DNA of 48,439 bases, taken from positions 1 to 48,439 of the forward strand of contig QHSR01000019.1 in the NCBI GenBank assembly GCA_003221635.1, read 5' to 3'. A program made the translations under genes and the position numbers. Below are positions 11,065 to 29,676 of this stretch, piece after piece. Each line of letters opens with the position of its first letter. Within the stretch, counting starts at the first letter, position 1. The notes under the pieces are model-generated. The model worked only from the letters and a program-made list of their open reading frames with translations, ran no database searches and was not told where the DNA came from. The DNA is from Candidatus Rokuibacteriota bacterium. GTDB taxonomy: Bacteria; Methylomirabilota; Methylomirabilia; Rokubacteriales; CSP1-6.

Positions 11065-11104
11065 AGTGAAACGCAAGCTAGCGTACGTCTCCCCGGCGGG
11101 CAAG

Positions 11105-12881: not shown

Positions 12882-13606
12882 CCGTGGACGAGCCGTTCAG
12901 CGACAAGGTCGAGGCCCGTGATGCGCCCAAGATGCCGGCCGAATATCAGGCGCTGCTCAAGCGCGTGCTCCGGATCCAGGCCGACTGCGAGATCGGCGGC
13001 CCGCACCTCTACGTGAACGAGTGGCTCCTGACGGCGCCGTCGGCTGACGACCAGTGGATGCTCGCCAAGGTCGCGGGCGAGGAGATCGACCATTTCCGCA
13101 AGATCAACCGGCTCCTCAACGAGCTGGGCGAGGACGCCTCGGAGCTGATGTACGTCGAGAAGTCCCGGCGCGACCTCGAGGCGTTCCGGCAGGCGATGCC
13201 GACGTGGGCGGACGTCGCCGCGTTCGGCTTTCTCATCGATCGCGTGGGCCAGTACCAGCTCGAGGAGTTCGTGGGCTGCTCCTACGTGCCGCTCGAGCGC
13301 GCGCTCCCCAGGATTATCCAGGAAGAGAGGACCCACGTCGGCTACGGCCACGTGAAGCTCCGCGACATGGTGCGGACCGAGGAGGGGCGCGCTCAGGCCC
13401 AGGCGGCGGTGGACCGGTGGTATCCGCGCGGGCTCGACATGTTCGGGCTCGCGAACTCCAAGCGCGCGGCCTGCTATCTGCACTGGGGGCTGAAGCGTCG
13501 GTCGAACGAAGGCGCCCGGGCGGAGTACATGGCCGAGGTGGCGCCGCTCATCGAGGGTCTCGGGCTGGTCGTGCCTGACGCGACGTCAGACCGCCACTTC
13601 CGCTGA
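12878..13606 (+). CDS. Phenylacetyl-CoA epoxidase (PaaA/PaaC)-like di-iron protein
   Basis: A 242-residue four-helix-bundle protein with a di-iron carboxylate ligand set: Glu38 (DCEIGGPHLY), Glu69-x-x-His72 (GEEIDHF), Glu129/130 (QLEEF), and Glu150-x-x-His153 (EERTHVGYGH). This is the phenylacetic-acid-catabolic (PF05138) pattern of ring 1,2-epoxidases. The start is ATG 12878 inside the tetR stop (ATGA); the longer frame upstream is not used. PaaB, PaaC, PaaD and the PaaE reductase are not adjacent, so it is either an orphan oxygenase or needs partners elsewhere. Its exact substrate is unknown. The first residues (MTVDEPFSDK) are unlike PaaA of classical operons as I recall them. Confidence 0.85.
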   Translation: MTVDEPFSDKVEARDAPKMPAEYQALLKRVLRIQADCEIGGPHLYVNEWLLTAPSADDQWMLAKVAGEEIDHFRKINRLLNELGEDASELMYVEKSRRDLEAFRQAMPTWADVAAFGFLIDRVGQYQLEEFVGCSYVPLERALPRIIQEERTHVGYGHVKLRDMVRTEEGRAQAQAAVDRWYPRGLDMFGLANSKRAACYLHWGLKRRSNEGARAEYMAEVAPLIEGLGLVVPDATSDRHFR

Positions 13607-15630: not shown

Positions 15631-16695
15631 ATGAGTGCCGCGACGGTGTTCATTTTCGCCCCGGTCGATGAAGCGCGAGACAGCCACAAGCGACTCGAGG
15701 CGGAGGGGTGCGAGCTGCGCCTGGGGAAGGCCTCCTGGGACACGCCCCAAGGAAACAGCGAGCCCGAGCTGATCCGCATGGCGCAGGGCGCCCACGCGCT
15801 CATGGGGACGTCCATCCGGAACGTGCCCATCAGCCGTAAGATCATGGAGAGCTCGCCCGAGCTCCGGGTCGTCGCCAAGTACACGATCGGCGTGGACGAC
15901 GTGGACGTCGAGGCGGCGACCGACATGGGGATCCTGGTCTGCCACGGACCGACCGAATCGAACTGGGGCGGCGTCGCCGAAGGCACGATCACGGCCATGC
16001 TCACCATGCTGAAGAAGGTTCGCGAGCGCGACCGGCATCTCAAAGACCGCGGCACCTGGCGGGATCAGCAGCTCCAGGGAACCTATCTGGGCGCCCGCGC
16101 CGACGGCTACGCGGGCATCACCCTCGGCCTGATCGGTCTCGGCCGGATCGGGAGTCGCATCGCCACGCTGTTGCGGCCGTGGCGGATGAAGATCCTGGCC
16201 ACCGACCCGTACGTGCCCGAGAGCAGGTTCACGGAGCACGGCGTGACCCGGGTGGACCTGCCGACGCTGCTCCGCGAGTCGGACGTGGTGAGCCTGCACG
16301 TGGTGCTGACCCGCGAGACCCGGCACATGATCGGGGCCGAGCAGCTGGCGCTGATGAAGCGCAGGGCGATTCTCATCAACACCTCGCGCGGCCCGTGCGT
16401 GCAGGAGCCGGCGCTCATCGAGGCGCTGCTCAAGGGACAGATCGGCGGCGCCGCGCTGGACGTGTTCGAGGAGGAGCCGCTGGCGCTCGACAGCCAGCTG
16501 CGCAATCTCGGCGACACGGTCCTGCTCTCGCCCCACATGGTCTCGTCCAACGTGGGGAGCGGGCTGGGTCCGGGCATCGCGTGGGCGACCGAGTCGGTCC
16601 TGCGTGCGCTGCGCGGTGAAGTTCCCGACAACGTCTACAACAAAGAGGTGATCCCGCGCTGGGAGCGTCGCTTCGGCGGCAAGAGCGTGTGGTAA
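15631..16695 (+). CDS. D-isomer specific 2-hydroxyacid dehydrogenase
   Basis: A 354-residue NAD-dependent dehydrogenase. GLGRIG (169-174) is the Rossmann glycine motif, Arg253 lies in NTSRG, Glu282 in DVFEEEP, and His302 in LSPHM, giving the complete Arg-Glu-His catalytic set. The family reduces 2-keto acids or oxidises D-2-hydroxy acids. The start ATG 15631 follows AGGAGG (15616-15621); GTG 15628 is an alternative. The stop is just before a broken MaoC hydratase, which had probably been the next gene of the operon. The catalytic residues are intact, so this member is expected to be active; substrate unknown. Confidence 0.9.
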   Translation: MSAATVFIFAPVDEARDSHKRLEAEGCELRLGKASWDTPQGNSEPELIRMAQGAHALMGTSIRNVPISRKIMESSPELRVVAKYTIGVDDVDVEAATDMGILVCHGPTESNWGGVAEGTITAMLTMLKKVRERDRHLKDRGTWRDQQLQGTYLGARADGYAGITLGLIGLGRIGSRIATLLRPWRMKILATDPYVPESRFTEHGVTRVDLPTLLRESDVVSLHVVLTRETRHMIGAEQLALMKRRAILINTSRGPCVQEPALIEALLKGQIGGAALDVFEEEPLALDSQLRNLGDTVLLSPHMVSSNVGSGLGPGIAWATESVLRALRGEVPDNVYNKEVIPRWERRFGGKSVW

Positions 16696-16704
16696 CGGCG
16701 CTGC

Positions 16705-17057
16705 GAGGAGAGCTTTGCCCGGCGGACCGAGTTCGGGAAGTGCCTGATCAACAGCACGCTCACCCTCGCGTCGTGACCGGGATGGGTGTCGCCGACGTCA
16801 GCGAGAACGGCGTCGCGCTCGGCTGGGACGAGGTGAAGCTACCGCATCCGCTCTTCGCCGGCGACACCCTCTGTTCCGAGTCGCGCGTGTTGGACAAGCG
16901 CGAGTCCCGGTCGAACCCGCAACGGGGCATCGTCAAGGTGCGCACGCGCGGGATTCAGCAGGAGGGCAAGGTCGTCATCGATTACGTGCGGAGCGTGCTC
17001 GTGTGGAAGAAGGCCCACGCCCCCACCCGCGGCCTCTTCCCGGAGGTCAGCGAATGA
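16705..17057 (+). pseudogene. MaoC-family enoyl-CoA hydratase remnant
   Basis: Two reading frames together give a MaoC hot-dog domain. First, from 16714 in one frame, FARRTEFGKCLINSTLTLA, the hydratase segment with the Asn-Ser-Thr motif, then a stop (TGA about 16772). The continuation VVTGMGVADVSENGVALGWD to the C-terminus (VRSVLVWKK) follows in the next frame, up to 17057. So a one-base loss occurred near 16770, and the first ~50-60 residues (including the conserved Asp-His active-site segment) are also missing after the dehydrogenase stop codon at 16695. Family members hydrate enoyl-CoA esters. It is inactive as written, unless both lesions are assembly errors. Confidence 0.7.
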
Positions 17058-17093
17058 GCCCCGCGCATCACGTCGATCCGATCGCCGGGCGTT

Positions 17094-17564
17094 TCAGGAG
17101 CCGGCCAGGACCTTCTTGACGTTGTCCAGGGTCTTCACACAGGCGACGGCCGCCTCTGCGCCCTTCACCTTGAAATGCTCATGGAAAAACTTTTGGTGCG
17201 CGTCGTCGTGTTCGTGGAAATTCTGAGGGGTGAGAACGAGCGAGATGATGGGCACTTCGGTCTCGAGCTGCACCCTCATGAGGGCGTCAAGGACGGTCTG
17301 GGCCACGAACTCGTGCCGATAGATACCGCCGTTGACGACGAACCCGGCGGCGACGATGGTTGAATATGCTTCCGTTTTGGCCAGGAGCTTGGCTTGCAGT
17401 GGAATCTCGAGACTTCCGGGCACCTCGTACATGTCGATCTGATCGGCGGACACGCCGTGTCTCTCGATTTCGGCGACGAAGGAGTCGCGGCCCTCATCGA
17501 CGACCTCCCGGTGCCAGCACGCTTGAACAAACGCGATTCGCTTCGTGGTGGTGGAGCGTTCCAT
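17094..17564 (-). CDS. ribH: 6,7-dimethyl-8-ribityllumazine synthase, RibH2-like
   Basis: A 156-residue lumazine synthase: it condenses 5-amino-6-ribitylaminouracil with 3,4-dihydroxy-2-butanone 4-phosphate, the penultimate step of riboflavin synthesis. VPGSLEIPLQAKLL (48-61) and the NGGIYRHEFVAQTVLDALM region (79-97) bind substrate, and LTPQNFHEHDDAHQKFFHEH (111-130) holds the catalytic histidine segment. The IYRHEFVA and TPQNFHEHD wording is that of the RibH2 type known from rhizobia and Brucella rather than ordinary RibH. ATG 17564 is preceded by AGGAGGA; the longer upstream frame is not coding. It follows two flavin-dependent LLM oxidoreductases, consistent with local flavin supply. No other rib gene and no FMN riboswitch fold is visible nearby. 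Confidence 0.92.
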   Translation of the reverse strand: MERSTTTKRIAFVQACWHREVVDEGRDSFVAEIERHGVSADQIDMYEVPGSLEIPLQAKLLAKTEAYSTIVAAGFVVNGGIYRHEFVAQTVLDALMRVQLETEVPIISLVLTPQNFHEHDDAHQKFFHEHFKVKGAEAAVACVKTLDNVKKVLAGS

Positions 17565-17695
17565 GGTGTTCAGTCCTCCTCGCGTACGGCTACCAATCTT
17601 CCGCGGAAATAGTTCGGGCCGCAAGGACCTGCCGCCAATTCTCGGTTTCCAGCCCCACGGCCAGGTCGTTCGTCGAGATCGTTCACCGGCGAACG

Positions 17696-18754
17696 CTATG
17701 AGAGGAACGTGGGCATGACCCCGCTGGCGAAGAGCTCCAGGGTTCGCAGCGCGTCCTGGACGCTGATCCCGCCGAAGTTGATCTGCAGCGAGGGCTCGAA
17801 CTCGCCGAAGACGTCGACGTGGTACCGGAGCTGCTCGATCACTTCCTCGGGCGTCCCGATCAGCGCCTGACGCTCCTCCAGCATCGACTCGATGGTCGTC
17901 CGGGCGATGGACTCGACCAGCTTGCCGTAGCTCGCGTACTGCGGGGATTGATGGGTCGCCCACGAGCTCACGGCTTCGCTGAAGACCTCGATGTAGCGCT
18001 CGATGCGGGGCTTCGCGCCCTCGATCGCCTCCCGGTGCGTCTCGGCCACGTAGCAGTGAAGCGAGCTCTGGACCTGCTCCTTGCCCGGCGGATGCCCGGC
18101 CTCACGCCAGGCCTGGCGGTAGGCGCGGACCATATCCCGTACCTTTCCGATGCTCCCGGCGTAGGGCACGATCATCACGTGGTAGCCGCGCCGGGCCGCC
18201 CAGATGAACGACTCCACCGACGCGACCGAGGCGACCCAGATGGGCGGGTGAGGCTTCTGGAGGGGACGCGGCTTCAGGTGGACATCGCGAAACCGGTGGA
18301 ACTTGCCGTCGTAGGACACGCGGTCCTCGGTCCAGAGCCGGGTGATGATGTCGATGCCTTCCTCGAAGCGGGCGCGGCTCTCCTCCATGCTCACGCCGAA
18401 CACCTCGAACTCCTTCGGGATGAACGCGCGGCCGAAGCCCACGTCGAGGCGACCGTTGCTGATGTTGTCCAGCGCCGCCAGCTCGGCCGCGAGCTTGACG
18501 GGATGGTTGAAGGCCGGGATGACCGCGCCGGTGATCGGGCGGATCCGCTGCGTGCGCGCCGCGACGGCCGCGAGGAAGACGAGGGGATTCGGCGAGTGAC
18601 CGCCGTAGTCATAGAAGTAATGTTCGACGGTCTTGACGGAGTTGAATCCGAGCTGGTCGGCGCGCTCGGCCAGGCGCAGGGACTGGGCGAAGTACTCCGC
18701 GGTCGAATAGTCGCTCGCCCGGAACGACGGGAAGAAGTTGAGACCGAACTTCAT
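17696..18754 (-). CDS. LLM-class flavin-dependent oxidoreductase (operon, distal)
   Basis: A 352-residue luciferase-superfamily oxidoreductase or monooxygenase. It starts MKFGLNFFPSF, has VKTVEHYFYDYGGHSPNP (residues ~44-61), the AVIPAFNHPVKLAAELAALD and NGRLDVGFGRAF cofactor-binding segments, and KPRPLQKPHPPIWVA (about residue 165). The FMN or F420 pocket motifs are intact. The start ATG overlaps the gentisate-dioxygenase-like stop as ATGA, so translation is coupled. The enzyme probably acts with reduced FMN from a separate reductase, which is not encoded here. The cluster context suggests hydroxylation or N-oxidation of an aromatic or heterocyclic compound (inference). No hairpin of note follows apart from a 5-bp stem at 17680-17695. 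Confidence 0.92.
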   Translation of the reverse strand: MKFGLNFFPSFRASDYSTAEYFAQSLRLAERADQLGFNSVKTVEHYFYDYGGHSPNPLVFLAAVAARTQRIRPITGAVIPAFNHPVKLAAELAALDNISNGRLDVGFGRAFIPKEFEVFGVSMEESRARFEEGIDIITRLWTEDRVSYDGKFHRFRDVHLKPRPLQKPHPPIWVASVASVESFIWAARRGYHVMIVPYAGSIGKVRDMVRAYRQAWREAGHPPGKEQVQSSLHCYVAETHREAIEGAKPRIERYIEVFSEAVSSWATHQSPQYASYGKLVESIARTTIESMLEERQALIGTPEEVIEQLRYHVDVFGEFEPSLQINFGGISVQDALRTLELFASGVMPTFLS

Positions 18755-19827
18755 CGCGCGGGGTCCGGGGCGCGCTCCTCCCGATAGATGCCGAACGCCT
18801 CGAGGATCGGCGTGTCGGTCGAGCTGAAGAGGAACGCGGGCTCGGTGGCCGACCGGTTCTCGTGCTGCACCCACGTCCAGTGCGGAATGGCCAGGCAGTC
18901 GCCCCTCTCCCACTCGAGCTTCTGATCGCCGACGATCGTGCGGCCTCGACCCCGGACGACGTGAACGACGGCGCTCGCGTTCGTCCGGCGCGCCCGAGTC
19001 ACGCCGCCCGGCCGGAGCCGGTGGGCGTAGCAGGCGATCGTCGGCAGCACCGGGCCGCCCGTCACGGGGTTGTTGTACTCGACGATCACGCCGCCGTCGC
19101 TCGTGTCGAGCTCGGCCAGCTCGGCGAGCGCCGCCTCGGCTCGATCCCATGGGTAGATCAGGAGCGGAGAGGGGCCGTCGTGGAGGCGCGGACCGACCGG
19201 CCGGACGATGCCGGCGCCGAACCGTTTGAGGTTTCCGCCCGGAGGCCGCGACCGCGGCTGGACCTCGTCGGGGAACGGCTCCCAGAACCACTGGTTGATT
19301 CCCATGATGAAGGGCACGTCGAGGACGTCGAGCCAGATCACGGGGTGGTCGGTCTCGTTGGCGTGGTCGTGCCAGCACCACTGCGGCGTCAGGATCAGGC
19401 TCGCCGGATCCATGGAGCAGGGCTCGCCGTCGACGACCGTCGCGGCCCCGCGCCCCTCGATCATGAACCGGAGCGCCCCCGCGGTGTGGCGGTGCGCCGG
19501 CGCGATCTCGCCCGGCAAAACGCCCTGGACGGCGGCGATCAGCGTCTGCGTCGTCGCGGCGCGCTTGAGGCCGGGATTGGACATGATCAGGTTGCGCCGC
19601 TCGGCCTTGACCGGATCGACGACATCGTAGGCCTTCACCATCATCGGCCGGAGCACTTCGCGCCAGCTCCAGCGGTACGCCTGCTCGGCCGGGATCGGCG
19701 CGTCCGCTACGCCGCCCTGGAACTCCCAGCCCGGCATCAGCGCGTGGCGGTGCGCGGCCTCGCTGAACGCGAGCAGCGCTGGATCGCTACCGACCTGGGC
19801 GACGGGGCGGCTCGGACCGGTATTCAT
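18751..19827 (-). CDS. Gentisate 1,2-dioxygenase-like bicupin
   Basis: A 358-residue bicupin. The first cupin has EIAPAHRHTAGALRFMIEG with His112 and His114, then WCWHDHANETDH with His153, the ferrous iron ligands of gentisate/salicylate/1-hydroxy-2-naphthoate dioxygenases. DPASLILTPQ before it is also family-typical. The second cupin (about 250-330) keeps the fold (VVHVVRGRGRTIVG, WTWVQHEN) but fewer ligands. Such enzymes cleave the ring between the carboxyl- and hydroxyl-bearing carbons. ATG 19827 overlaps the stop of the upstream LLM gene, and its stop overlaps the next LLM gene, both as ATGA. The substrate could be gentisate, a salicylate or a related hydroxy-aryl acid. Confidence 0.88.
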   Translation of the reverse strand: MNTGPSRPVAQVGSDPALLAFSEAAHRHALMPGWEFQGGVADAPIPAEQAYRWSWREVLRPMMVKAYDVVDPVKAERRNLIMSNPGLKRAATTQTLIAAVQGVLPGEIAPAHRHTAGALRFMIEGRGAATVVDGEPCSMDPASLILTPQWCWHDHANETDHPVIWLDVLDVPFIMGINQWFWEPFPDEVQPRSRPPGGNLKRFGAGIVRPVGPRLHDGPSPLLIYPWDRAEAALAELAELDTSDGGVIVEYNNPVTGGPVLPTIACYAHRLRPGGVTRARRTNASAVVHVVRGRGRTIVGDQKLEWERGDCLAIPHWTWVQHENRSATEPAFLFSSTDTPILEAFGIYREERAPDPAR

Positions 19828-20915
19828 GACGTCCGCCCCGCGACGACGGTCTCGTGCTTCTCGGCGAAATGGGGCATCACTTCCTTGGCGAAGCGCTCCA
19901 TCGCCGCGAGCGTGTCGCGGTGGCTCAGCTCGCCGAAGTTGAAGTACAGGATGACCTCGGAGAGGCCGCCCTCCTCGCACCGCTTCAGCACCTCGATGCA
20001 GTGCTCGACGTCGCCGGTGACGATGCTCCGATCGCCCAGCTGGCTCGGCTGCATCGCCTTGAGCCGCTCGACGATGTCCACGAAGTACGCGATGTGGGGC
20101 GGAGCCGTGCTCCGGTCGCCCGGAAGCACGGGCAGGATGCTGTGAAGGTAATGCAGCAGACGCTCGCGCGCGCGATCGGCCTCGGCCGAGCTGTGGGCGA
20201 CGGCCAGGAAGTAGCTACACATGACTTTCGGGTCGGGATGGCCGGCCTCGATGGCCATGCGCTTGCTCTCGCGCGCCGCCTCCTGGACCGAGCCGAACAG
20301 CATCGCGGCGGCGAACGGCGCGAAGATCGTGTTGACCCGCAGCCGAGCCGCCAGCTCGATCGACGGCTTCGAGAAGCACGCCACGTACACCTCGGGGTGC
20401 GGCTGCTGCAGGGGCCGCGGCACCACCGTGAGCGGCTCCGGCGTCGAGTAGTACCGGCCGTGAAACTCGAACGGCGACTGCCGCCACGCCGCCATCATGT
20501 ATTCCATCTGCTCGTCGAACACGGCGCGGCTGTCGTCGAACGACGCGCCGAACGGCGTGTACTCGCCCTGGTCGTACCCGCGTCCCGCCGAGAACACGGC
20601 GCGCCCGTCGCTCAAGAGGTCCAGCAGGTTGAACTCTTCCACCATCCGCAAGGGGTGGTTGATGGGCAACACGACCGTGGCGGGCCCGAGCTTGAGCGTC
20701 CGGGTGCGGCTGGCGATGTGGGTCAGGAACATGGTCGGCGAGGGGAGCACGCCGAAGCGACCGAAGTGGTGCTCCGGGACCCAGGCGCTGTGGTACCCCA
20801 TCGCCTCGGCCTCGACACATTCCTCGACGACCTCGAGGAGGAACCGATTCGGATCGCGCCGGCCCGGACCGTAGGCCGGTGGATTGTCGGTCAGCGTGAA
20901 ATAGCCGAACTTCAT
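19824..20915 (-). CDS. LLM-class flavin-dependent oxidoreductase (operon, proximal)
   Basis: A 363-residue luciferase-superfamily enzyme, distinct from the downstream paralogue. MKFGYFTLTDNPPAYGPGRR opens strand 1; AWVPEHHFGRFGVLPSP (about residues 44-60) is the luciferase alpha-like active-site segment with the catalytic-region EHHF motif; GPATVVLPINHPLRMVEEFN and FSAGRGYDQGEYTPFG follow. EHHF plus GRGY is typical of FMN-dependent monooxygenases of the luxA-like branch. Its stop overlaps the cupin start (ATGA) and the VOC dioxygenase gene lies 9 bases upstream. The two LLM genes flank the cupin, arguing for sequential use of two flavin oxygenases in the same route. Confidence 0.92.
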   Translation of the reverse strand: MKFGYFTLTDNPPAYGPGRRDPNRFLLEVVEECVEAEAMGYHSAWVPEHHFGRFGVLPSPTMFLTHIASRTRTLKLGPATVVLPINHPLRMVEEFNLLDLLSDGRAVFSAGRGYDQGEYTPFGASFDDSRAVFDEQMEYMMAAWRQSPFEFHGRYYSTPEPLTVVPRPLQQPHPEVYVACFSKPSIELAARLRVNTIFAPFAAAMLFGSVQEAARESKRMAIEAGHPDPKVMCSYFLAVAHSSAEADRARERLLHYLHSILPVLPGDRSTAPPHIAYFVDIVERLKAMQPSQLGDRSIVTGDVEHCIEVLKRCEEGGLSEVILYFNFGELSHRDTLAAMERFAKEVMPHFAEKHETVVAGRTS

Positions 20916-20924
20916 CTCCGCCTC

Positions 20925-22145
20925 CTAGCCGAGCGGCCCCTGGAAGACCTGATCGACGTAGGTATCCGAGAGGGGCTCCAGCGTCTCTGGCCACGCCGAC
21001 GGCACGGCGCGCCGCTGGCTGGCCGGCCGCACCTTCCCATCCCAACCGACCTGCTCCATGTAGTAGTAGAGCTGGACGCAGTGGCCGTCCGGGTCCAGCG
21101 CGAACGCCGAGTAGTCGATGCCGGGATAGAGCTCCGGCGGTATCGAGTCGACGAGCGTCACCCCGTGCGATTTCAAGAAGGCGACGGCCTCGCGCAGCTG
21201 GGTATAGCTCCCGACCTCGACCCCGAAGGACATGCAGCTCGTGTGCTCGGAGAGGCCGAGCGCGCGCCGGAGCTCCTTGGGGAAGAGCCCCACGCTGTGA
21301 TGCTCCGCGCCCGCGCGCAGGAACACACAGCGCGAGCCGCGATAGGTGACCTCCTCGCTCTTCACGAAGCCGAGGTGACCACAGTAGAACGCCTCGGCGC
21401 GCGCCACGTCGGCCACGAACAGGCTCACCGGGCCGATCTTGGTGATCTTGAACGGCCGCGGCAGCAGCACCCCTTCCACCTCGTAGGTCTCGGCGAGAGA
21501 CTCCCGCGTACGGTTGCCGGAGAGGACGTCGATGCCCTTGTCGAACGCCTCGGCCACCTCGGCGATCTCGGACACCTGAGGCAGCGAGGGCTTCTCGCGA
21601 AAGCCGCGATAGTACATCTCGGTGGGCTTGCTCAGCTGGTTCCAGCCGATCTGCTCGATGCCGTAGTAGAGCTCGATGGTGTGGCCGTCGGGGTCGTACA
21701 CGTACACGTGCCAGTTGCTCCCGGGCATGTCACGTCCCACCCGCTGGATGGGGATCCCACGGTTCTGAAAGTAGGCGTGGGCGTCCATGATCTCCTTGAG
21801 GCTGCCGCACTGCCAGGTGATCTGGTTGACCGTCACCTCGGGCGCGAACTTCCGATCCGGCCGGTGGTCCAGCACCCGCTTGTTGAAGAGCACGAACGCG
21901 TGGTGGTCCGTTCCGTAGCGCATGAAGTAGCCGCGCGTGTCGCCGAGGTCGGCGCCCTTGGGCGCCCACGGCATCTTGCCGAAGTCCAGGATGTCCGAGT
22001 GCTTGAAGCCGAGCAGCCCCCCGTAGAAGTCGCGCGACTGGTCCATCTTGACCGCGTTGAAGCCGAAGTGGCCCAGCCGCCGGATCTTGAAGGGTCGCGG
22101 TAGGAGCACGCCACCGACGTTGTAGCGATCACCGTTCGACGCCAT
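20925..22145 (-). CDS. Tandem VOC-domain extradiol dioxygenase-like protein
   Basis: A 406-residue protein with two similar halves, each starting VLLPRPFKI (residues 14-22 and 227-235). Each half has a VOC module: LGHFGFNAVKMDQSRDFY then HVYVYDPDGHTIELYY in the first; GPVSLFVADVARAEAFY then SAFALDPDGHCVQLYYY in the second. The His/Glu ligand pattern of type-I extradiol (catechol 2,3-dioxygenase-like) enzymes is recognisable: His in GHFGF and the Glu in ELYYG, plus HHAF. Internal duplication of ~210 residues is obvious. The gene begins ATG 22145 behind GGAGGGA. It most likely cleaves a diol or modifies the product of the flavin oxygenases; exact chemistry unknown. Confidence 0.85.
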   Translation of the reverse strand: MASNGDRYNVGGVLLPRPFKIRRLGHFGFNAVKMDQSRDFYGGLLGFKHSDILDFGKMPWAPKGADLGDTRGYFMRYGTDHHAFVLFNKRVLDHRPDRKFAPEVTVNQITWQCGSLKEIMDAHAYFQNRGIPIQRVGRDMPGSNWHVYVYDPDGHTIELYYGIEQIGWNQLSKPTEMYYRGFREKPSLPQVSEIAEVAEAFDKGIDVLSGNRTRESLAETYEVEGVLLPRPFKITKIGPVSLFVADVARAEAFYCGHLGFVKSEEVTYRGSRCVFLRAGAEHHSVGLFPKELRRALGLSEHTSCMSFGVEVGSYTQLREAVAFLKSHGVTLVDSIPPELYPGIDYSAFALDPDGHCVQLYYYMEQVGWDGKVRPASQRRAVPSAWPETLEPLSDTYVDQVFQGPLG

Positions 22146-22182
22146 CGTTCGCTCCCTCCTCGAGTGCGAGTGTCCGATCGTC

Positions 22183-23151
22183 CTACGACGCCAGGGCCCT
22201 GAACAGGGCCAGGCGTCTCATCCGCGGAGACTTCAGCAGCCCCTCCGGGATCACCAGGGCCACCGCCAGCAAGGTAAGCCCGAAGAAGAGCATAGACGGA
22301 ACCGGCAGCCGCAGGTAGTGGAAGAAAACGGTCTCGACGATCCGGATGATCGCGGTGCCGAAGACCGGCCCGAGGACGGTGCCGGTGCCGCCCATGAGCG
22401 CCATCAGAGCTGGCAGGAGGCTTCGTTCCACCCCCAGGGCGATATTCGGATCGATGAACCCGGAATTCAGGGCGAAGAGCACGCCGGCCGCCGCGCTGGG
22501 AAGGCTGCTGAGCACGATGGCGATGCTCTTGTACTTCATGAGGCTGAGCCCGATCGCCTGAGCCGCGCCCTCGTCCTCCTTGATGCAGCGGAAGGCCAGG
22601 CCCAGGGTACTCCGGGACAGGTAACAGTTGAGGGCCACCGATACGATCGCCACGACGAGCGCCAGATAGTAGGCCACGAACGTGCTCATGAAGAACGCCG
22701 GGGGCACGTAGAGGCCGTAGGATCCACCCGTCAGCGGCCCGAGGTTCAGCGCGAGCACCTGGAGGAGAAAGATCAGGATCAGGGTCCCGATGGCGAAGTA
22801 GAGACCCTTGAGTCGAAAGAGAGGGAATGCCATCACGGCCGCGAAGAGCGCGGCGGCGGCGAGCGCGGACACGGTGATGACCACGTGCGTGAGCGCGCCC
22901 AACTGCTGAACGCTCGGGATATTCAGCAGCATGGTGGCCACGTACGCCCCGAGTCCGAAAAAGGCACCCTGACCCAGGTTGATGTGGCCGAGAAAGCCAT
23001 CCAGCACGTCGTAATTCGCCGTCAGGATCAGCCACACGAAGCTCAGGAACATCACCACGAGCCAGGTCGACGAGAGGAAGAGCGGGAGCGCGCCCAGCGC
23101 CGCGATGACGCCTGCCGCGGCGGTGGTGGCGCGCGCGCGCGTCGGTCTCAA
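22183..23151 (-). CDS. livM: Branched-chain amino acid-type ABC permease LivM
   Basis: A 322-residue inner-membrane permease with about nine hydrophobic segments. Hallmarks include GHINLGQGAFFGLGAYVATM (residues ~53-72), the cytoplasmic EAA-like loop GLAFRCIKEDEGAAQAIGLS, and SGFIDPNIALGVERSLLPAL with MALMGGTGTVLGPVFG. The start is TTG 23151, overlapping the livH stop as TTGA, with GGAAAGGG inside livH as ribosome site. Reading the frame further upstream produces Arg-rich nonsense from the livH region. Together with LivH, G, F and the LivK-type binding protein it forms a HAAT-family importer; in catabolic operons such importers often carry aromatic or other organic acids. Confidence 0.93.
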   Translation of the reverse strand: MRPTRARATTAAAGVIAALGALPLFLSSTWLVVMFLSFVWLILTANYDVLDGFLGHINLGQGAFFGLGAYVATMLLNIPSVQQLGALTHVVITVSALAAAALFAAVMAFPLFRLKGLYFAIGTLILIFLLQVLALNLGPLTGGSYGLYVPPAFFMSTFVAYYLALVVAIVSVALNCYLSRSTLGLAFRCIKEDEGAAQAIGLSLMKYKSIAIVLSSLPSAAAGVLFALNSGFIDPNIALGVERSLLPALMALMGGTGTVLGPVFGTAIIRIVETVFFHYLRLPVPSMLFFGLTLLAVALVIPEGLLKSPRMRRLALFRALAS

Positions 23152-24009
23152 TAGACGCCCTTTCCGAACAAGCCGGTGGGCTTGAACGAGAGAACCAGGA
23201 ACAGCATGGTCAGGCTCACGGCCGGCGCCCAGACCGTGCCGAGGAGCTGACTCGTGATGACCTCCGCGAGGCCCAGCACGGTCCCCGCCACGAGGGTGGC
23301 CGGCAAATTTCCCACGCCCGCCAGGATCACGACCGTGAACGCCTTGAGGGTCAGCGGCAGTCCTTCGTAGGGATTCAGGGGCTATGGCCGTGGCGACGAT
23401 GGCCAGCGTGAACAGGATCATCGAGAGCCGGTAGGGATTGAGCCCGATCACGACAAACCCGTCGAAGTTCTGGGCCATCGCGCGTGCCCCCTTGCCCAGG
23501 AACGTCTTGTGGAGGAAGAGGTGAAAGCCCGAGACCATCAGGAGGACGAACGCGAGGATGACGAGCCGGCTCCCCGAGAGCGAGACCCCGCCCAGGGTCA
23601 GGGGGAACATCGCGAGGGACGACGAGAAGACGGGATAGGGATCGACGAAGGTGACCCACGAATATCCGAGCGCGCTCTCCATCGAGAGGCCCAACCCGAA
23701 CGTCGCCATGATGCTACCCGTCAGCAGCAGGTGAACGCTTCGCCCCAGCAGGGAGCGCACGATGCCCCACTCGAACAGCAGGGCGAAACCGAAGAAGAGC
23801 ACCGTGAGGATCAGCAGTGCCAGCGCCGGATGGAGGTTGAGACGCTGGGAGAGGATCACGAAGAAGGCGCCGCCCCAGACGAAGAAGACCCCGTGGGCGA
23901 CGTTCAGCACGCGGGTCGTGCTGATGGTCAGGGACATGGCGAACGCGAGCAGGGCGTAGATACCACCCAGGGACAACCCGCTGACGATCAACTCCAGCAC
24001 GCGCGCCAT
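23148..24009 (-). pseudogene. livH: Branched-chain amino acid-type ABC permease LivH with one-base frameshift
   Basis: The first ~210 residues are a normal LivH: GGIYALLAFAMSLTISTTRV (16-35), VLNVAHGVFFVWGGAFF, and GKGARAMAQNFDGFVVIGLN. After IVATAIA the frame turns Arg-rich, and the true continuation, NPYEGLPLTLKAFTVVILAG then VGNLPATLVAGTVLGLAEVI, is in the -1/+1 neighbouring frame to the stop at 23148. The shift maps to a run of four G (23378-23381, CCCC on the coding strand). The span is 862 bases, one more than a multiple of three, so removing one base restores a 286-residue protein. Probably a homopolymer consensus error; if real, the importer would lack a subunit. Confidence 0.85.
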
Positions 24010-24027
24010 GATCCGAGCGAGCGCCCG

Positions 24028-25281
24028 CTACTGGCGCGGGCGGTACTTGGCGGTGGCGACCTCGGGCGGCCAGATCACTTCGATCTTTCCGTTCTGCCAC
24101 TGCGCCGGATAGACGACCTTGTTGCCGACTCCGTCGACTTTCTTTCCGGCCACCTCCGCGCCGAAGCTGAACGCGAGCTGGCCGTGCAGGGTCTCGTACT
24201 TGAGATCTCGGAGGGCCGCCATCACCCTGGCCCGGTCCAGGCTGCCGGCCCGCTCGATGGCCTTCGTCAGCGCCTCGAGCGCGATGAAGCGAAGCGACGT
24301 CCACCCCGCATCGAACCCGCTCAGGCCGACCCGCTTGCGCAGGGCGAAGTACGCGTCCTTGTCGCCCTTTCTGAAGTGCGCCTCGTGCGTGGTCCCGGTG
24401 ATGCCTTCGCCGATGGTGGCGCCGACCATCGAGTAGTACTTCTCGGTGATGGTGCTGTGGGGAATGTGGAGCTCCCTCGGCTTCAGGCCGAGCTCGAACG
24501 CCTGCTTGGCGAAGGCGGCCCCGGTGCCGGCCCAGGTCGCCACATAGATCAGGTCGGGGTTCAACGCCTTCAGCTTGCCGATGATCGCCGAGAAGTCAGT
24601 CGCGCTCGGCGGCACCGTCTCGGTCGCCACCACCGTCAGGCCGGCGATGTTCGCCCGGTTGATGCCGCCCCATCCCACGTCCATCGTGTGCGGCGTGTTC
24701 TCCTGGATGACGGCCACCGTCTTGAGCCGCGGCATGGTCCCCGCGTCCATGAGCGCCGTGACCATCGCGTAGTAGTCTTCCGCCCACTGCGGCGCCGGCC
24801 GGTCCGCGCCGACCAGCCACTTGAAGCCGCGCGCGAAGATCGCCGGGCTGTTGGCCTCCGCGGTGACCATGGGGATGCCGTACTTCTCGGCGATGGTCGA
24901 GGCCTTGATCGTGATGGGGCTGGTCGCGGGGCCCGTGAAGAAGTCCACCTTGTCGGTGGTGGCCAGCCGCTCGTAGAGCTCCACCGCGCGATCGGCGCTG
25001 CTCCCGTCGTCGTAGAGGATGAGCTTGATCGGGAGCTTGGCGTTCGCCTCCTTCACGAAGATGCCCCCACGCTCGTTCATCATCGTGGCCCACGCCTCCA
25101 TGAAATTCTTGGCGGTGGGCCCCCACTCGACGGAAAAGGTGCCGGTGACCGCCATCGTGCCCCCGATCTTGATTTCTCGGGCCTGGGCGCGAGCGTCGGG
25201 GGCGAAGACATGGGAGCCGGCGAAGAGCGCGCTCACCACCACCATCAGTCCGAGACCGAGTACGTGAGACCTCATTCCCAT
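24028..25281 (-). CDS. Branched-chain amino acid-type ABC substrate-binding protein (LivK-like)
   Basis: A 417-residue periplasmic binding protein of the Leu/Ile/Val type-I fold. A signal peptide (hydrophobic residues 7-24, ARAQA cleavage near 34) precedes IKIGGTMAVTGTFSVEWGP, the first ligand-loop signature. FFTGPATSPITIKASTIAEK and NPDLIYVATWAGTGAAFAKQ are typical of HAAT binding proteins for aromatic or other organic ligands rather than leucine specifically. The gene lies between livF and livH in the same operon, 18 bases before livH. ATG 25281 or 25275 are both possible starts. It defines what the importer carries, presumably the substrate of the downstream oxygenases. Confidence 0.92.
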   Translation of the reverse strand: MGMRSHVLGLGLMVVVSALFAGSHVFAPDARAQAREIKIGGTMAVTGTFSVEWGPTAKNFMEAWATMMNERGGIFVKEANAKLPIKLILYDDGSSADRAVELYERLATTDKVDFFTGPATSPITIKASTIAEKYGIPMVTAEANSPAIFARGFKWLVGADRPAPQWAEDYYAMVTALMDAGTMPRLKTVAVIQENTPHTMDVGWGGINRANIAGLTVVATETVPPSATDFSAIIGKLKALNPDLIYVATWAGTGAAFAKQAFELGLKPRELHIPHSTITEKYYSMVGATIGEGITGTTHEAHFRKGDKDAYFALRKRVGLSGFDAGWTSLRFIALEALTKAIERAGSLDRARVMAALRDLKYETLHGQLAFSFGAEVAGKKVDGVGNKVVYPAQWQNGKIEVIWPPEVATAKYRPRQ

Positions 25282-25312
25282 GTCCGTGCCTCCTTCACAG
25301 GGCCGCTCTCGA

Positions 25313-26017
25313 TCAGATTCCCAGGTAGGACTTCCGGATGCTCTCGGAGCTCCCGAGCTCCGCGCTCGTGCCCTGCATGACGATCGTCCCCGATTCCAGC
25401 AGGTAGGCCCGGTCCGAGATCTTCAGGGCCTGCATGACGTTCTGCTCCACCAGCAGGATGCTCAGCCCCTGCTCGTTGAGCGTCTTCAGGACCCGAAACA
25501 GCTCCTGCACCAGGAGGGGCGAGAGCCCCAGTGAGGGCTCGTCCAGGATCAACAGCTCGGGCTTCGCCATCAGCGCGCGGCCGATGGCCACCATCTGCTG
25601 CTCTCCACCGCTGAGCGTGCCGGCGGGCTGGCCGCGCCGCGCCTGCAGGCGAGGAAAGAGCGAATAGACCCACTCCTGCGCGGCGCGCTTCTGGGCGCGC
25701 GCTCGCGGAGGCGAAGCTCCCAGCTCGAGATTTTCCTCGACCGACATGTCCGGGAAGAGCAGCCGGCCCTCGGGTGCGAGGCTCACGCCCAGGCCGACCG
25801 TGCGGTGCGGGGGCCAGCCGGTGATGTCCGTGCCGTTCAGAGAAATCCGGCCGGTCCGCGGCGTGAGCAGGCCGATGATGGCCCTGACGGTCGTGGTCTT
25901 CCCCGCGCCGTTCGGCCCCAGCAGGCACACCGTCTCGCCGGCCTGGACCTCGAGGCGCACTGCGTGGAGCGCGGGGATCGGGCCATAGAAGACGTCGATG
26001 TCCTGGACGCTAAGCAC
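25313..26017 (-). CDS. livF: Branched-chain amino acid-type ABC ATPase LivF
   Basis: A 234-residue ATPase. GPNGAGKTT (34-42) is Walker A, LSGGEQQ (about 138) the ABC signature, LLILDEPSLG (about 158-167) Walker B, and LVEQN the H-loop-side motif, where Gln replaces the usual switch His as is normal in LivF. The ~234-residue length and VSLAPEGRLLFPDMSVEENL are diagnostic of LivF. The start is GTG 26017, overlapping livG by 8 bases. It pairs with LivG to power the LivH/LivM channel. Confidence 0.95.
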   Translation of the reverse strand: MLSVQDIDVFYGPIPALHAVRLEVQAGETVCLLGPNGAGKTTTVRAIIGLLTPRTGRISLNGTDITGWPPHRTVGLGVSLAPEGRLLFPDMSVEENLELGASPPRARAQKRAAQEWVYSLFPRLQARRGQPAGTLSGGEQQMVAIGRALMAKPELLILDEPSLGLSPLLVQELFRVLKTLNEQGLSILLVEQNVMQALKISDRAYLLESGTIVMQGTSAELGSSESIRKSYLGI

Positions 26018-26747
26018 TCGCCACTCCGAGATAGGCGTCGATGACCGCCCGGTGGCCGGCGACCATCTCGGGCGTGCCTTCGGCGAGCTTCTCGCCGTGA
26101 TCGAGCACGACGATGCGATTGCACATCGTCATCACCACCTTCATGACGTGCTCGATGACGAGCAGGGTGAGCGACAGCTCTCGCCTGAGCGAGCCCAAGA
26201 TCTCGACCATCTCCTGCGCCTCGCCGACGGTCAGCCCAGCCATGACCTCGTCGAGCAGCAGGAGCTCGGGACCGGTCGCCAGGGCCCGGGCCAGCTCGAG
26301 CCGGCGACGCTCGGAGAACTGGAGCTCTCGTGCCCGCGTCTCCTTGCGCCGATCGAGCTTGACCGAAGTCAGGACGAGATCGGCCGTTCTCCGTGCGTCG
26401 TCCAGACCGGTGACGCGTCGGGGATTCCGGCCGAACAGCACGGCCGCGGCGATGTTGTCCTGAACGGTCAGCTCGGCGAACGGGCGGGTGAGCTGGAAGG
26501 TGCGCGCGATCCCGCGCCGGCAGATCTGATTCGGCGGGAGGCCGGTAATGTCCGCCCCCTTGAACAGAACGCGTCCCGCCGTGGGTCTGAGGCCGCAGAT
26601 GACGTTGAACAGCGTGGTCTTCCCGGCGCCGTTCGGGCCGATGAGGCCCAGCACGTCTCCGCCGTTCACCGAGAGCTCGACGCGGTCGAGGGCCTGAACC
26701 CCGCCGAAGCTCCGACTGATCTCCCGCGCCTGCAGCAGTGGGCCCAC
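26010..26747 (-). CDS. livG: Branched-chain amino acid-type ABC ATPase LivG
   Basis: A 245-residue ATPase. GPNGAGKTT (37-45) is Walker A, LLLLDEVMAGL Walker B, and IEHVMKVVMTMCNRIVVLDH the H-loop segment. The signature motif reads LQFSERRRLELARAL instead of the canonical LSGGQ; LivG proteins often have an altered form such as LPYGDQRRLE. ICRRGIARTFQLTRPFAELT is a strong LivG hallmark. Start GTG 26747. It is the first gene of the importer cluster in transcription order, 26 bases after doxX, so the operon may begin with or before doxX. Confidence 0.95.
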   Translation of the reverse strand: MGPLLQAREISRSFGGVQALDRVELSVNGGDVLGLIGPNGAGKTTLFNVICGLRPTAGRVLFKGADITGLPPNQICRRGIARTFQLTRPFAELTVQDNIAAAVLFGRNPRRVTGLDDARRTADLVLTSVKLDRRKETRARELQFSERRRLELARALATGPELLLLDEVMAGLTVGEAQEMVEILGSLRRELSLTLLVIEHVMKVVMTMCNRIVVLDHGEKLAEGTPEMVAGHRAVIDAYLGVASA

Positions 26748-26773
26748 CGGCGTTCCCTGTCCTCGCGCGTGGC

Positions 26774-27211
26774 TCAGGTCGCGCGCTTCTCGATCCCGAT
26801 GGCCCGGTCCATCGACATGGAGCCGGGCCCCGTCATCAGCAGCACCAGGGCGATGATCCCGAGGGTGAGCACGAACTCGAAGCCGCCCTTGGTCCAGAAG
26901 AAGCCGTTGACCAGATGCACCTTGACCACCGCAACCGTCATGTCGATCACGAGTCCCGCCGCCCAGAAGCGGGTCAGGAACCCGAACAAGATGCAGATGC
27001 CGCCGACGAACTCGGTGATGGCCACGACCCAGGCCCAGAGGACGTGCGGCTCGATTCCGTACTTCGCGAGCAGGCCGGCGAAGCCCGCGATACCGCTGCC
27101 GCCGAACGCGCCCAGGAGCTTCTGAGAGCCGTGCATCACGAAGACGACGCCCAGGAAGAGACGCAAGATCAGCAAGGCCAACCGCTCCAACCCCTCGAGC
27201 CGCTGCGACAC
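26774..27211 (-). CDS. DoxX family membrane protein
   Basis: A 145-residue protein with four hydrophobic helices. LFLGVVFVMHGSQKLLGAFG (residues ~18-37) is the DoxX hallmark, followed by AITEFVGGICILFGFLTRF and the conserved NGFFWTKGGFEF. DoxX proteins are inner-membrane components, best studied as a quinone-linked subunit; most bacterial members have no defined role, and some act in redox or thiosulfate-related processes. Start GTG 27211. The following livG gene begins 26 bases downstream on the same strand, so it may be cotranscribed with the importer/catabolic operon. Confidence 0.9.
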   Translation of the reverse strand: MSQRLEGLERLALLILRLFLGVVFVMHGSQKLLGAFGGSGIAGFAGLLAKYGIEPHVLWAWVVAITEFVGGICILFGFLTRFWAAGLVIDMTVAVVKVHLVNGFFWTKGGFEFVLTLGIIALVLLMTGPGSMSMDRAIGIEKRAT

Positions 27212-27252
27212 AGGTGTCCTCGCTTTCTCTCGGGCCGGTCAGGCCCGAGCCC

Positions 27253-27355
27253 TCAGGGCTTGTGGTGCTCTACGGCGATCCGCACGGCCCCGAGGATGCC
27301 TGCGTCGGGGCCCTCGCCGCAAACTTAATCTGGGGGATGATGGCGTGGTCGTGAA
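27253..27355 (-). pseudogene. Possible C-terminal fragment of a ROK-family sugar kinase
   Basis: In the gap between the hydrolase at 27384 and doxX, the minus strand reads VHDHAIIPQIKFAA and, after a one-base shift, GEGPDAGILGAVRIAVEHHK then a stop at 27253. The last part resembles the ending of ROK kinases (typically LGxDAGxxGAxxLA). The rest of the gene is absent. Resemblance is limited to about 30 residues, so this is tentative. Confidence 0.35.
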
Positions 27356-27383
27356 CGGGCGAGGGCTGGTGGGGATCGAGGTT

Positions 27384-28268
27384 TCAGCCGCTCGCTAGAA
27401 AGCTCCGGATGATTTTCAGGAAGTCGTCGAGGCGGTCGTGATGGAGCCAGTGGCCGGCGCCGTCGACGCCGACCACCTTCGCATGGCGAAAATGCCGGGC
27501 CCGGCCATCTTCGGCCGGATTGCCCGCCCGGCTCTCCTTGCCGTACATCAGGAGCGTCGGGCAATCGATCCGCGACCAGAGAAGCTGGATGTCACGGCCC
27601 CGCATGTCGTAGGGCGGCCAGGCACGCACGTAGTTGTCGAACTTCCAGCTGTACGTCCCGTCCTCGTTCTGGTTGACGCCGTGCACGGTCAGGTGCCGGG
27701 CCTGCTCGGCCGTGAGGTGCGGGTTCTCCTCCTGCATGCGCCGGAAGGCGTCCTCGATGGAGGCGTAGCGACGGGGGAGTCGGCCGGCGAGGTTGCGTTG
27801 CTCGGCGACCCATTCCTGCACGCGCTCGACGATCGTCGTCGAGGCAGTTCGTACGAGCCATGCCGGTGGCGGGCCGAGCCCCTCGATGGCGACGAGCCTG
27901 GCGACCGTGTCGGGATAGATGCCGGCGTAGCGGAGGGCGACCTGACCGCCCAGCGAGTGGGCGATGATCGTGACCGGCGCCAGGCGCTGCTGATGGACGA
28001 GCTGGGCCAGGTCGTAGATGTAGCCGGCCAGGGTGTAGCTGCCGTCGGTCGACCACTGGCTGTCGCCGTGCCCCCGGAGATCGGGCGCGAGAACGTGCCA
28101 GTCGTCCCGCCACGCCGCGGCGGCCCAGTCCCAGTTCCGGCAGTGGTCGCGCCCGCCGTGCAGGAGCACCAGCGGTGGCTTCGTCGGATTACCCCAGTCG
28201 ACATAGTGGAGGCGTAGACGCTGCGAGAAGAACGTGTGGGACGTCGGTCCCGGCATGCGGCCGGTCAT
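27384..28268 (-). CDS. Alpha/beta-fold hydrolase
   Basis: A 294-residue serine hydrolase. HGGRDHCRNWD (residues 37-47) gives the oxyanion hole, APDLRGHGDSQW (61-72) follows, and IIAHSLGG places the nucleophile at Ser105. The C-terminal GAGHWLHHDRLDDF carries the catalytic His. It looks like a typical epoxide hydrolase/haloalkane dehalogenase/esterase-type enzyme, but with no distinguishing second active-site residues that I could assign. Start ATG 28268, or ATG 28256 four codons later. It is divergent from the cupin gene at 28326. Unrelated in sequence to the hydrolase at 5135 beyond the fold motifs. Confidence 0.88.
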   Translation of the reverse strand: MTGRMPGPTSHTFFSQRLRLHYVDWGNPTKPPLVLLHGGRDHCRNWDWAAAAWRDDWHVLAPDLRGHGDSQWSTDGSYTLAGYIYDLAQLVHQQRLAPVTIIAHSLGGQVALRYAGIYPDTVARLVAIEGLGPPPAWLVRTASTTIVERVQEWVAEQRNLAGRLPRRYASIEDAFRRMQEENPHLTAEQARHLTVHGVNQNEDGTYSWKFDNYVRAWPPYDMRGRDIQLLWSRIDCPTLLMYGKESRAGNPAEDGRARHFRHAKVVGVDGAGHWLHHDRLDDFLKIIRSFLASG

Positions 28269-28325
28269 CGGTGGACATCTATGCTAGCATCCCCTCCGTT
28301 CCGACAACGAAGACGGGAGGACGCG

Positions 28326-28661
28326 ATGGGCACGTTCCGGCTCTACGCAGGCACTGACGGGCAGGCGCACATCGAGAAAATCGAGCTCAAGGCGAAGCCC
28401 GACTGGCTGAAGGGCCTTCCGGCGAATCAGATCACGTTCCGGGAGTGGCCGGCGGGCCGGTTCCTCGACTGGCATCCGGCCCCCCGCCGCCAGTTCGTCA
28501 TCATTCTCTCCGGGCAGCTCGAAATCGGTCTGGGCGACGGCTCGAAGCACGTGTTCGGACCGGGTGACGCCCGACTCGTCGAGGACACGACGGGCAAGGG
28601 GCACACCACGCGCGTTCTCGGTGATCAGATCTGCGTGACGGCGACCGTGCCCCTGGCCTAA
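28326..28661 (+). CDS. Small cupin-domain protein
   Basis: A 111-residue single cupin. Hallmarks are WHPAPRRQFVIILSGQLEIG (residues ~44-63) with the first His, and FGPGDARLVEDTTGKGHTTR (79-98) with the second-motif His. Histidine replaces only part of the canonical ligand set, so metal binding is uncertain. The ATG at 28326 has GGGAGG upstream; the same frame is open from 28236 but with no better start. It begins an operon with a 2-hydroxyacid dehydrogenase 31 bases downstream and an SDR. Function is unknown; cupins of this size include metal-dependent isomerases and sensors. Confidence 0.82.
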   Translation: MGTFRLYAGTDGQAHIEKIELKAKPDWLKGLPANQITFREWPAGRFLDWHPAPRRQFVIILSGQLEIGLGDGSKHVFGPGDARLVEDTTGKGHTTRVLGDQICVTATVPLA

Positions 28662-28692
28662 CCGCCTCATCACACCTCAAAAGGAGCCGGAC

Positions 28693-29676
28693 ATGGCGAC
28701 CAAGATCGTCTTCATCCCCAAACAACCCGACGCGATCCTCGACATCGCGAAATCGCTGACGCCTCCCGGCTTCGAGCTCGTGGTGGTCGACCAGGACACC
28801 CCGGCGTTCTACGACGCGGTGAAGGACGCGGAGTACGTCATGGGGCTCGGCCGCCCGATCGGCGGAGAGTTCTTCCGGTCGGCGCCCAAGCTGAAGCTGG
28901 TCCAGCTCCTCAGCGCCGGCTACGACCGTGTCGACATCGAGTCGGCGAGGAAGGCGAAGGTGTCGGTCGCCAACAACGGGGGCGCCAACGCGATCGCCGT
29001 CTCGGAGCACACGATCATGCTGATGCTCTCGGTCCTGAAGCGACTGGTCGTGTTCCACAACGACGTGGTCGCCGGTAAGTGGCGGGTGGGCAACCATGTG
29101 GACTCGCGGGTGTTCGAGCTCCACGGTAAGACGCTCGGCATCGTCGGTCTCGGCAACATCGGCAAGAAGGTCGCCCGGCTCGCGCACGCGTTCGACATGA
29201 CCATCCAGTACTACGACGTCGCGCGCCTCACCGAGGACCAGGAGGACGCCCTCGGCGTCCGCTTCGTCCTGTTCACCGAGCTCTTGCGCACGTCGGACAT
29301 CGTGACGCTGCACGTGCCGCTCGACGACAGCACGCGGAATCTGATCGGCGCGCGCGAGCTCGCGATGATGCAGAAGAGCGCCATCCTGGTCAACACGTGC
29401 CGCGGCCCCGTCGTGGACGAGAACGCCCTTTACCGGGCGCTGACGGAGGGCCAGATCCTGGCGGCCGGGCTCGACGTGCTGGTCGAGGAGCCGGCGAAGC
29501 CGAATCACCCGCTGTTCTCGCTGAAGAACGTCACGCTCACGCCGCACTCGGCCGGACCCACCTGGGAGAACTGGAGGGCGCGGTTCCGCAACGGCTTCGA
29601 CAACATCCAGCGCGTCGCCGCGGGCCGCCCGGCCAAGTGGGTGATCCCCGAGCTCCTGACCCCGCCCGGAGCCTAG
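28693..29676 (+). CDS. D-isomer specific 2-hydroxyacid dehydrogenase
   Basis: A 327-residue NAD-dependent dehydrogenase. GLGNIG (152-157) is the dinucleotide motif, Arg237 lies in NTCRG, Glu266 in LVEEPAKP, and His285 in LTPHSAG, forming a complete catalytic triad. AAGG to AAGGAG precedes ATG 28693. It lies in a cupin-dehydrogenase-SDR operon; the SDR starts 2 bases after its stop, so the two act together, perhaps interconverting a hydroxy or keto acid. It differs in length and detail from the paralogue at 15631. Phosphoglycerate, glyoxylate and C1-acid dehydrogenases share this fold; the precise substrate is unknown. Confidence 0.93.
   Translation: MATKIVFIPKQPDAILDIAKSLTPPGFELVVVDQDTPAFYDAVKDAEYVMGLGRPIGGEFFRSAPKLKLVQLLSAGYDRVDIESARKAKVSVANNGGANAIAVSEHTIMLMLSVLKRLVVFHNDVVAGKWRVGNHVDSRVFELHGKTLGIVGLGNIGKKVARLAHAFDMTIQYYDVARLTEDQEDALGVRFVLFTELLRTSDIVTLHVPLDDSTRNLIGARELAMMQKSAILVNTCRGPVVDENALYRALTEGQILAAGLDVLVEEPAKPNHPLFSLKNVTLTPHSAGPTWENWRARFRNGFDNIQRVAAGRPAKWVIPELLTPPGA

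Follow-up and report, generated by a model that had tools for sequence, protein, structure and literature searches.

What does a dense run of minus-strand genes coding for an importer, luciferase-like monooxygenases (LLMs) and two families of ring-cleavage dioxygenase do in an uncultured soil bacterium? The genes lie in a 48,439-nt stretch of DNA, hereafter the window, which is contig C6 of a 5.17-Mb Rokubacteria draft genome (G000; 88.8% complete, 5.2% contamination) whose near relatives are metagenome-assembled genomes of Candidatus Rokuibacteriota. A sequence-only reading had proposed a complete uptake, hydroxylation and ring-opening route of ten genes, running from livG to the lumazine synthase gene ribH. 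We found that the array is real and partly conserved, and that it is of catabolic type. Our preferred reading, to which we assign a probability of roughly 0.55, is a mosaic operon for the aerobic opening of aromatic rings. The importer, the LLMs and the gentisate-dioxygenase-type cupin of the earlier proposal are present. Its completeness as a single route was not upheld, since RibH is not conserved, most members of the genus lack importer and cupin, and livH is broken in the window.

The order of genes on the minus strand is α/β-hydrolase, DoxX, LivG, LivF, LivK, LivH, LivM, tandem-VOC protein, LLM1, cupin, LLM2 and RibH (Table 1). The ten genes named previously are confirmed in this order and on this strand by their open reading frames (ORFs) and, for LivG, LivK, LivM, VOC, LLM1, cupin, LLM2 and RibH, by Pfam matches from a scan that took in 40 window proteins, a part of its ORFs. 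The ATGA overlaps at the LLM1-cupin and cupin-LLM2 junctions are likewise present, and the livH stop and the TTG start of livM overlap in a TTGA. From DoxX to LLM2, ten co-directional genes follow one another with overlaps or gaps of at most 37 nt, while the outer gaps are larger, with 172 nt between the hydrolase and DoxX at the upstream end and 131 nt between LLM2 and RibH at the downstream end. The genes and junctions had therefore been described correctly, but the array begins upstream of position 26747, at DoxX or possibly at the α/β-hydrolase; both point in the direction of the array and are syntenic with VOC in relatives. A consensus scan of positions 16900-28800 returned no sigma-70-like promoter and two terminator-like sites, where shuffled sequences gave 4.5 on average, so that nothing splits the array by this crude test.

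Comparison of nine genomes of the genus, G000 included, separates the array into two sets of genes. Judged by gene content, the constant core consists of the α/β-hydrolase, the tandem-VOC protein and LLM2, usually together with DoxX and LLM1. VOC is present in all nine genomes, at 89-95% identity in the others, and so is LLM2, the copy of G001 being cut by a contig end. The two are linked in eight, and in the ninth (G001) they are split by contig ends. LLM1 (E 1e-60) and DoxX each occur in seven genomes. The hydrolase lies on the same side of VOC in eight, and in G005 the contig stops 671 nt past DoxX. Of the array, G002 and G004 contain the hydrolase, VOC and LLM2 alone. The importer and the cupin, on the other hand, are accessory; some species possess them, and others lack them or carry decaying copies. 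Five Liv genes were found in two genomes (G000, with a broken livH, and G008, where livH is intact), LivM remnants in G001, and the cupin, at an identity of at least 89%, in three.

The adjacency of these genes is not confined to the window contig. The order recurs in G008, RibH excepted, and synteny extends in part to G048, a member of another genus, where livGFKHM-VOC lies on a contig ending inside VOC, a second contig carries LLM1, and LLM2 is found on a third next to a cupin with a frameshift; G059, of another family, has LLM2, cupin, DoxX and the Liv genes together in another order. The G048 cupin ortholog occupies positions 10230-11260 of locus L090, and the frame of the adjoining LLM2 is open. 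The array genes that were measured are under purifying selection, with a ratio of non-synonymous to synonymous substitution rates between G000 and G008 of about 0.10-0.20 and of 0.48 for DoxX; livH entered with its N-terminal part only and RibH was not measurable. A tree of array and flank proteins places G000 and G001 as sisters (88/99) and needs two changes to account for the presence of importer and cupin when the G001 remnant is scored as present. In a tree of three flank proteins alone, G008 groups with G002 and G004 instead. We read this as ancestral presence of importer and cupin with later loss, though they may instead have been gained or exchanged.

The constant candidate for a ring-cleavage enzyme in the genus is the tandem-VOC protein. 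We aligned ten sequences, of which six come from the genus, three from plasmids and one from G057 in another family of the order. H26, H81, H82, H146 and E158 of domain 1 are invariant in all ten. The metal positions of domain 2 are degenerate, with P239 and Q358 in every sequence. The protein thus carries a 2-His-1-Glu metal triad in its N-terminal domain, for which H81 or H82 is the predicted second histidine. With BphC and HPCD, two-domain type I extradiol dioxygenases, it shares the two VOC domains, the H-H-E triad and the hydrolase or FAH neighbours, and it differs from them in the N-terminal place of the triad and the degenerate C-terminal positions of all ten rows. The rule for the active domain of such enzymes is taken from the accessible part of PMC6880040. 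Profile searches gave mixed matches, domain 1 aligning with C-terminal halves (1han, 1dhy, 9wgj) and with N-termini (1mpy, 5zsz, 5znh), and domain 2 with an N-terminal half (1f1r and other HPCD rows) and with C-terminal halves (3vb0, 3b59, 6l3w, 1kwb). The two domains may be swapped by descent relative to BphC; we claim only the place of the triad, and it is on this place that the more tentative reading given below rests. An AlphaFold model of the protein from three sequences had a mean predicted local distance difference test score of 34.6.

VOC matches were obtained in 25 plasmid records, four of which, from Rhodococcus koreensis, Sphingobium CFD-1 and CFD-2, and Leisingera, hold a full-length relative at 48-54% identity; in a fifth record, two pieces at 30.5% together cover 80%. 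An FAH-family gene lies directly beside the full-length gene in all four, the CFD-1 and CFD-2 clusters being near-identical, and the Sphingobium clusters carry an annotated α/β-hydrolase and a CoA transferase alongside. Some of the neighbour ORF limits used for Pfam scans were set by a codon-composition picker, with frames wrong in places; no functional claim depends on it. The R. koreensis plasmid (L102, 6967-12734), which is unannotated, has FAH, tandem VOC, a short-chain dehydrogenase/reductase (SDR), an α/β-hydrolase-like ORF (no profile scan), an iron-containing alcohol dehydrogenase and an intradiol dioxygenase in one run. The Sphingobium cluster might serve pesticide breakdown, but in the papers found, among them the accessible part of PMC12442392, the VOC gene was linked to no tested reaction.

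The second predicted ring-opening enzyme is the cupin, and its earlier description as gentisate-dioxygenase-like agrees with the residues that it keeps. Alignment to 3nst, with the catalytic residues of gentisate and salicylate dioxygenases taken from the accessible part of PMC11264262, shows the iron ligands and second sphere of salicylate dioxygenase (SDO) to be retained: His119, His121, His160, Arg83, Gln108, Ala125, Arg127, His162, Trp172, Asp174 and Leu176. Where SDO has its residues 85, 104 and 106, the cupin has N, I and A by manual count, so the substrate may differ from those of the known bicupins of this type (TIGR02272; 2d40, 3bu7, 2phd). Such bicupins adjoin oxygenase or FAH genes. 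The neighbour of the window cupin is an LLM, whereas it is an FAD monooxygenase in three of five plasmid regions (Streptomyces atratus, Sagittula, Arthrobacter); FAH and isomerase genes adjoin in the other two (Cupriavidus, Blastomonas).

This pairing of LLM and cupin recurs. We surveyed 48 cupin loci (eight, plus 40 from the homologue list; of the weaker two-piece matches only L147 was included). An LLM directly adjoins the cupin on the same strand in eight of them (the window, L079, L087, L090 and L095-L098) and lies on the opposite strand within 300 nt in two more (L117, L124). An FAD-monooxygenase profile adjoins the cupin in none of the 48, one weak match being found 0.8 kb away in L146, and an amidohydrolase does so in seven. 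LLM2 itself was found in 15 of the 95 genomes of the phylum that were searched (E 1e-90), and in 13 of these LLM2 has a ring-cleavage dioxygenase (VOC or cupin) on its own strand, either adjoining it or separated from it by one LLM. Of the other two, G001 is cut by a contig end and G034 has no ring-cleavage dioxygenase in the 18.9 kb examined. Outside the genus, four more genomes have an LLM2 relative (52-53%) and a cupin (41-44%) as immediate neighbours, G011, G013 and G038 from three genera of the same family and G059 from another family; G034 is the fifth genome to carry an LLM2 of this kind, and the same 18.9 kb contain no cupin. A tree of 25 cupins (22 from surveyed loci and three references, the frameshifted G048 copy left out) places the LLM-paired cupins in two groups. 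A single clade of seven was rejected (approximately unbiased test, p = 0.0012), in a test where the group was set by adjacency but the split was already visible in a quick tree, and where long branches are present.

The array of G059, with the order LLM2-cupin-FAH-DoxX-LivKGFHM, is the strongest support for a predicted coupling of uptake and ring opening. It contains the FAA hydrolase (PF01557, 7.7e-58) that is a typical, not strictly defining, neighbour of gentisate dioxygenases and that the window array does not have. Its DoxX is 60% identical to that of the window, and its LivK is the best match in that genome to the window LivK (48%, the next being 42%). More tentatively, an LLM would stand in for the usual FAD hydroxylase of a gentisate-type route, in a pairing assembled at least twice within Rokubacteria, next to a family of extradiol dioxygenases with the catalytic metal site in the N-terminal VOC domain rather than the C-terminal one. 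Among the titles and abstract openings listed, with few subscription papers, we recognised no described operon of this composition, which is weak evidence of absence.

From these predicted functions, the following scheme can be drawn. The importer would take in an aromatic or aryl-acid compound, which may also be N-heteroaromatic and which the LLMs, as putative FMNH2-dependent monooxygenases, would oxygenate to yield a substrate for ring cleavage. A catechol-type ring would be cleaved by the VOC protein, whose N-terminal domain would hold Fe(II) or Mn(II), and the α/β-hydrolase would split the product. Where present, the cupin would in addition open a hydroxylated acid of the gentisate or salicylate type, with LLM2 supplying or modifying its substrate, and RibH would be a later neighbour with no part in the pathway. 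If true, this would provide a testable route of aromatic degradation for a soil lineage that is uncultured and has many LLM and Liv genes, and would make luciferase-family enzymes the ring-activating partners of ring-cleavage dioxygenases. It would also give a function to a tandem-VOC family with members in catabolic clusters on plasmids of cultured bacteria, in which the gene is open to knock-out.

Both LLMs score above the PF00296 gathering cut-off of 27.9 bits, and their best NCBIfam matches are of FMN or luciferase types, followed by F420 families, none being above its cut-off among the best 25 listed; F420 genes are reported for Rokubacteria in the accessible part of PMC8498797. Several observations weigh against the mosaic operon. 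The best solved relative of LLM2, the FMN-dependent luciferase-like monooxygenase RslO1 (7bip), matches over the full length (347.5 bits). The accessible parts of PMC8093152 and PMC11354265 link RslO1, an enzyme of rishirilide biosynthesis, to the making of an epoxide in a polyketide, and LLM2 may consequently catalyse epoxidation or Baeyer-Villiger chemistry rather than hydroxylation. A Baeyer-Villiger oxidation is the reaction of an LLM in the breakdown of progesterone (PMC12239570, accessible part). In view of these two enzymes, hydroxylation of a ring by an LLM is a prediction only. LLM2 differs from RslO1 in adjoining ring-cleavage dioxygenases, and no flavin reductase family was found among the 40 window proteins scanned. 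The cupin scores well below the TIGR02272 equivalog cut-off (284.4 against 442.1 bits). A profile search placed no FAH in the window array, its nearest match being at 38-529. The window carries a broken importer, of which the sister genome G001 keeps LivM remnants only. The LLM2-cupin pair occurs in G011 and G013, but the best LivK there is a distant one (33-34%), and G038 has its close LivK (49%) on a different contig from the pair. No close relative with a tested substrate was found. Finally, the flanking genes (two D-2-hydroxyacid dehydrogenases, an SDR, an amidohydrolase, a class II aldolase, a TetR regulator and others) are largely syntenic too, so that part of the conservation reflects the shared neighbourhood of near relatives.

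The alternative that survives best, though we regard it as unlikely, is a two-ring substrate. Opening of its first ring by VOC and the hydrolase would set free a hydroxybenzoate to be processed by LLM2 and the cupin, as in routes of the biphenyl or naphthalene type that lead to salicylate or gentisate. Such a substrate would agree with a core of hydrolase, VOC and LLM2 whose route is extended by an added cupin, and with the salicylate and gentisate dioxygenase residues of the latter. However, six genomes of the genus have no cupin ortholog and yet keep LLM2 near VOC, and no Rieske dioxygenase was found in the window with a one-sequence profile or among the 40 scanned proteins.

It is improbable that the LLMs serve natural-product-like tailoring or detoxification and that the array has no role in growth on aromatics. 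The match of LLM2 to RslO1 would fit such a role, as would the LLM2 relatives on Streptomyces plasmids, where two of three regions lie beside genes of the non-ribosomal peptide synthetase (NRPS) type. The two ring-cleavage enzyme families, the FAH-linked relatives and the importer point to catabolism instead, and no polyketide synthase or NRPS family is among the scanned window proteins.

A chance neighbourhood has still less to recommend it. G000 is very rich in LLM and Liv genes, with 90 PF00296 and 69 PF02653 matches, and given these numbers an LLM beside Liv genes is in itself weak evidence, which we dropped. Against chance stand the identical order in G008, the VOC-LLM2 linkage across the genus and the LLM2-cupin pair in four further genomes.

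The importer has the five genes of HAAT/Liv ABC importers, in the order G F K H M. Compared with the intact 295-aa livH of G008, the window gene lacks 26 nt near position 23380, and a long ORF (22183-24009, 608 aa) joins the livH N-terminus, out-of-frame sequence and livM. The deletion may be a real lesion or an assembly error; five intact subunits are found in G008. The window LivK is only distantly like any solved binding protein (best E 9.4e-21), and a substrate guess from it was dropped because all solved relatives are weak. In G001 (L079, 3409-3715), the LivM remnants lie between DoxX and VOC, most of the importer being gone.

RibH, which had been counted as a member of the array, is probably a bystander and probably a recent arrival. 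In addition to the gap that separates it from LLM2, its GC content at third codon positions is aberrant (0.78, against 0.87-0.95 in 11 other genes measured). In the genus (n = 9) it has a counterpart at 93% identity in G001 and at 50-52% in three others, with none at E 1e-15 in the remaining four, and it is absent from G008. It scores above the NF009084 cut-off (235.9 against 160 bits) with 1t13 as its best solved match, and we take it to be of the RibH2 type. As it is not conserved, its role as a flavin supplier for the LLMs was rejected. One linear ten-gene pathway with RibH feeding flavin to both LLMs, although consistent with the single strand, the overlapping or near-overlapping genes as far as LLM2 and the 93% RibH about 0.9 kb downstream of LLM2 in G001, is the least probable reading, given the 131-nt gap, the odd base composition, the lack of a RibH at 90% identity or more in seven of the nine genomes, a second PF00885 gene elsewhere in G000, and the importer and cupin missing from most of the genus.

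Table 1 Features of the array in the window
Feature	Position	Strand	Evidence or remark
α/β-hydrolase, proposed hydrolase of the ring-cleavage product	27384..28268	-	Pfam Abhydrolase_1, 1.7e-23
DoxX-family membrane protein	26774..27211	-	Pfam DoxX, 1.2e-21; 26 nt before LivG
LivG, HAAT importer ATPase	26010..26747	-	Pfam ABC_tran and BCA_ABC_TP_C
LivF, HAAT importer ATPase	25313..26017	-	ORF and 88% identity to the G008 copy, no Pfam scan; 8-nt overlap with livG
LivK-like substrate-binding protein	24028..25281	-	Pfam Peripla_BP_6, 8.2e-43
livH permease gene, frame broken	23148..24009	-	PF02653 matches in two frames, 23190-23369 and 23380-23988
LivM permease	22183..23151	-	Pfam BPD_transp_2, 1.5e-32; TTG start overlapping the livH stop
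Tandem-VOC protein, proposed type I extradiol dioxygenase	20925..22145	-	Putative N-terminal metal triad H26, H81 or H82, E158
LLM1, luciferase-like monooxygenase	19824..20915	-	Pfam Bac_luciferase, 3.6e-57, 194.6 bits
Gentisate-1,2-dioxygenase-type bicupin	18751..19827	-	TIGR02272, 1e-84, 284.4 bits (below cut-off 442.1)
LLM2, luciferase-like monooxygenase	17696..18754	-	Pfam, 2.8e-69, 234.3 bits; best solved match 7bip (RslO1)
RibH2-type lumazine synthase, adjacent, probably not a member of the array	17094..17564	-	NF009084, 235.9 bits, cut-off 160

Some further features were noted around the array. In G008 (L034, 12223-14875), a phospholipase-D-like gene, read from its ORF with no profile scan, and a third LLM occupy the place of RibH. 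Beside the RibH region of the window, positions 16689-17057 on the plus strand hold a partial PF19315 (mesaconyl-CoA hydratase) gene, which looks N-terminally truncated against a longer ORF in L034 (14880-15563) and could be read as a deletion or rearrangement. A C-terminal TctA piece (11463-12224, minus strand; profile positions 281-423 of 423), perhaps the remnant of a second copy, lies near a full-length TctA (8159-9649) and TctC (10099-11238). Positions 12878-13606 on the plus strand encode a PaaA/PaaC-family protein right after a TetR regulator, in a genus-wide syntenic block of several relatives.

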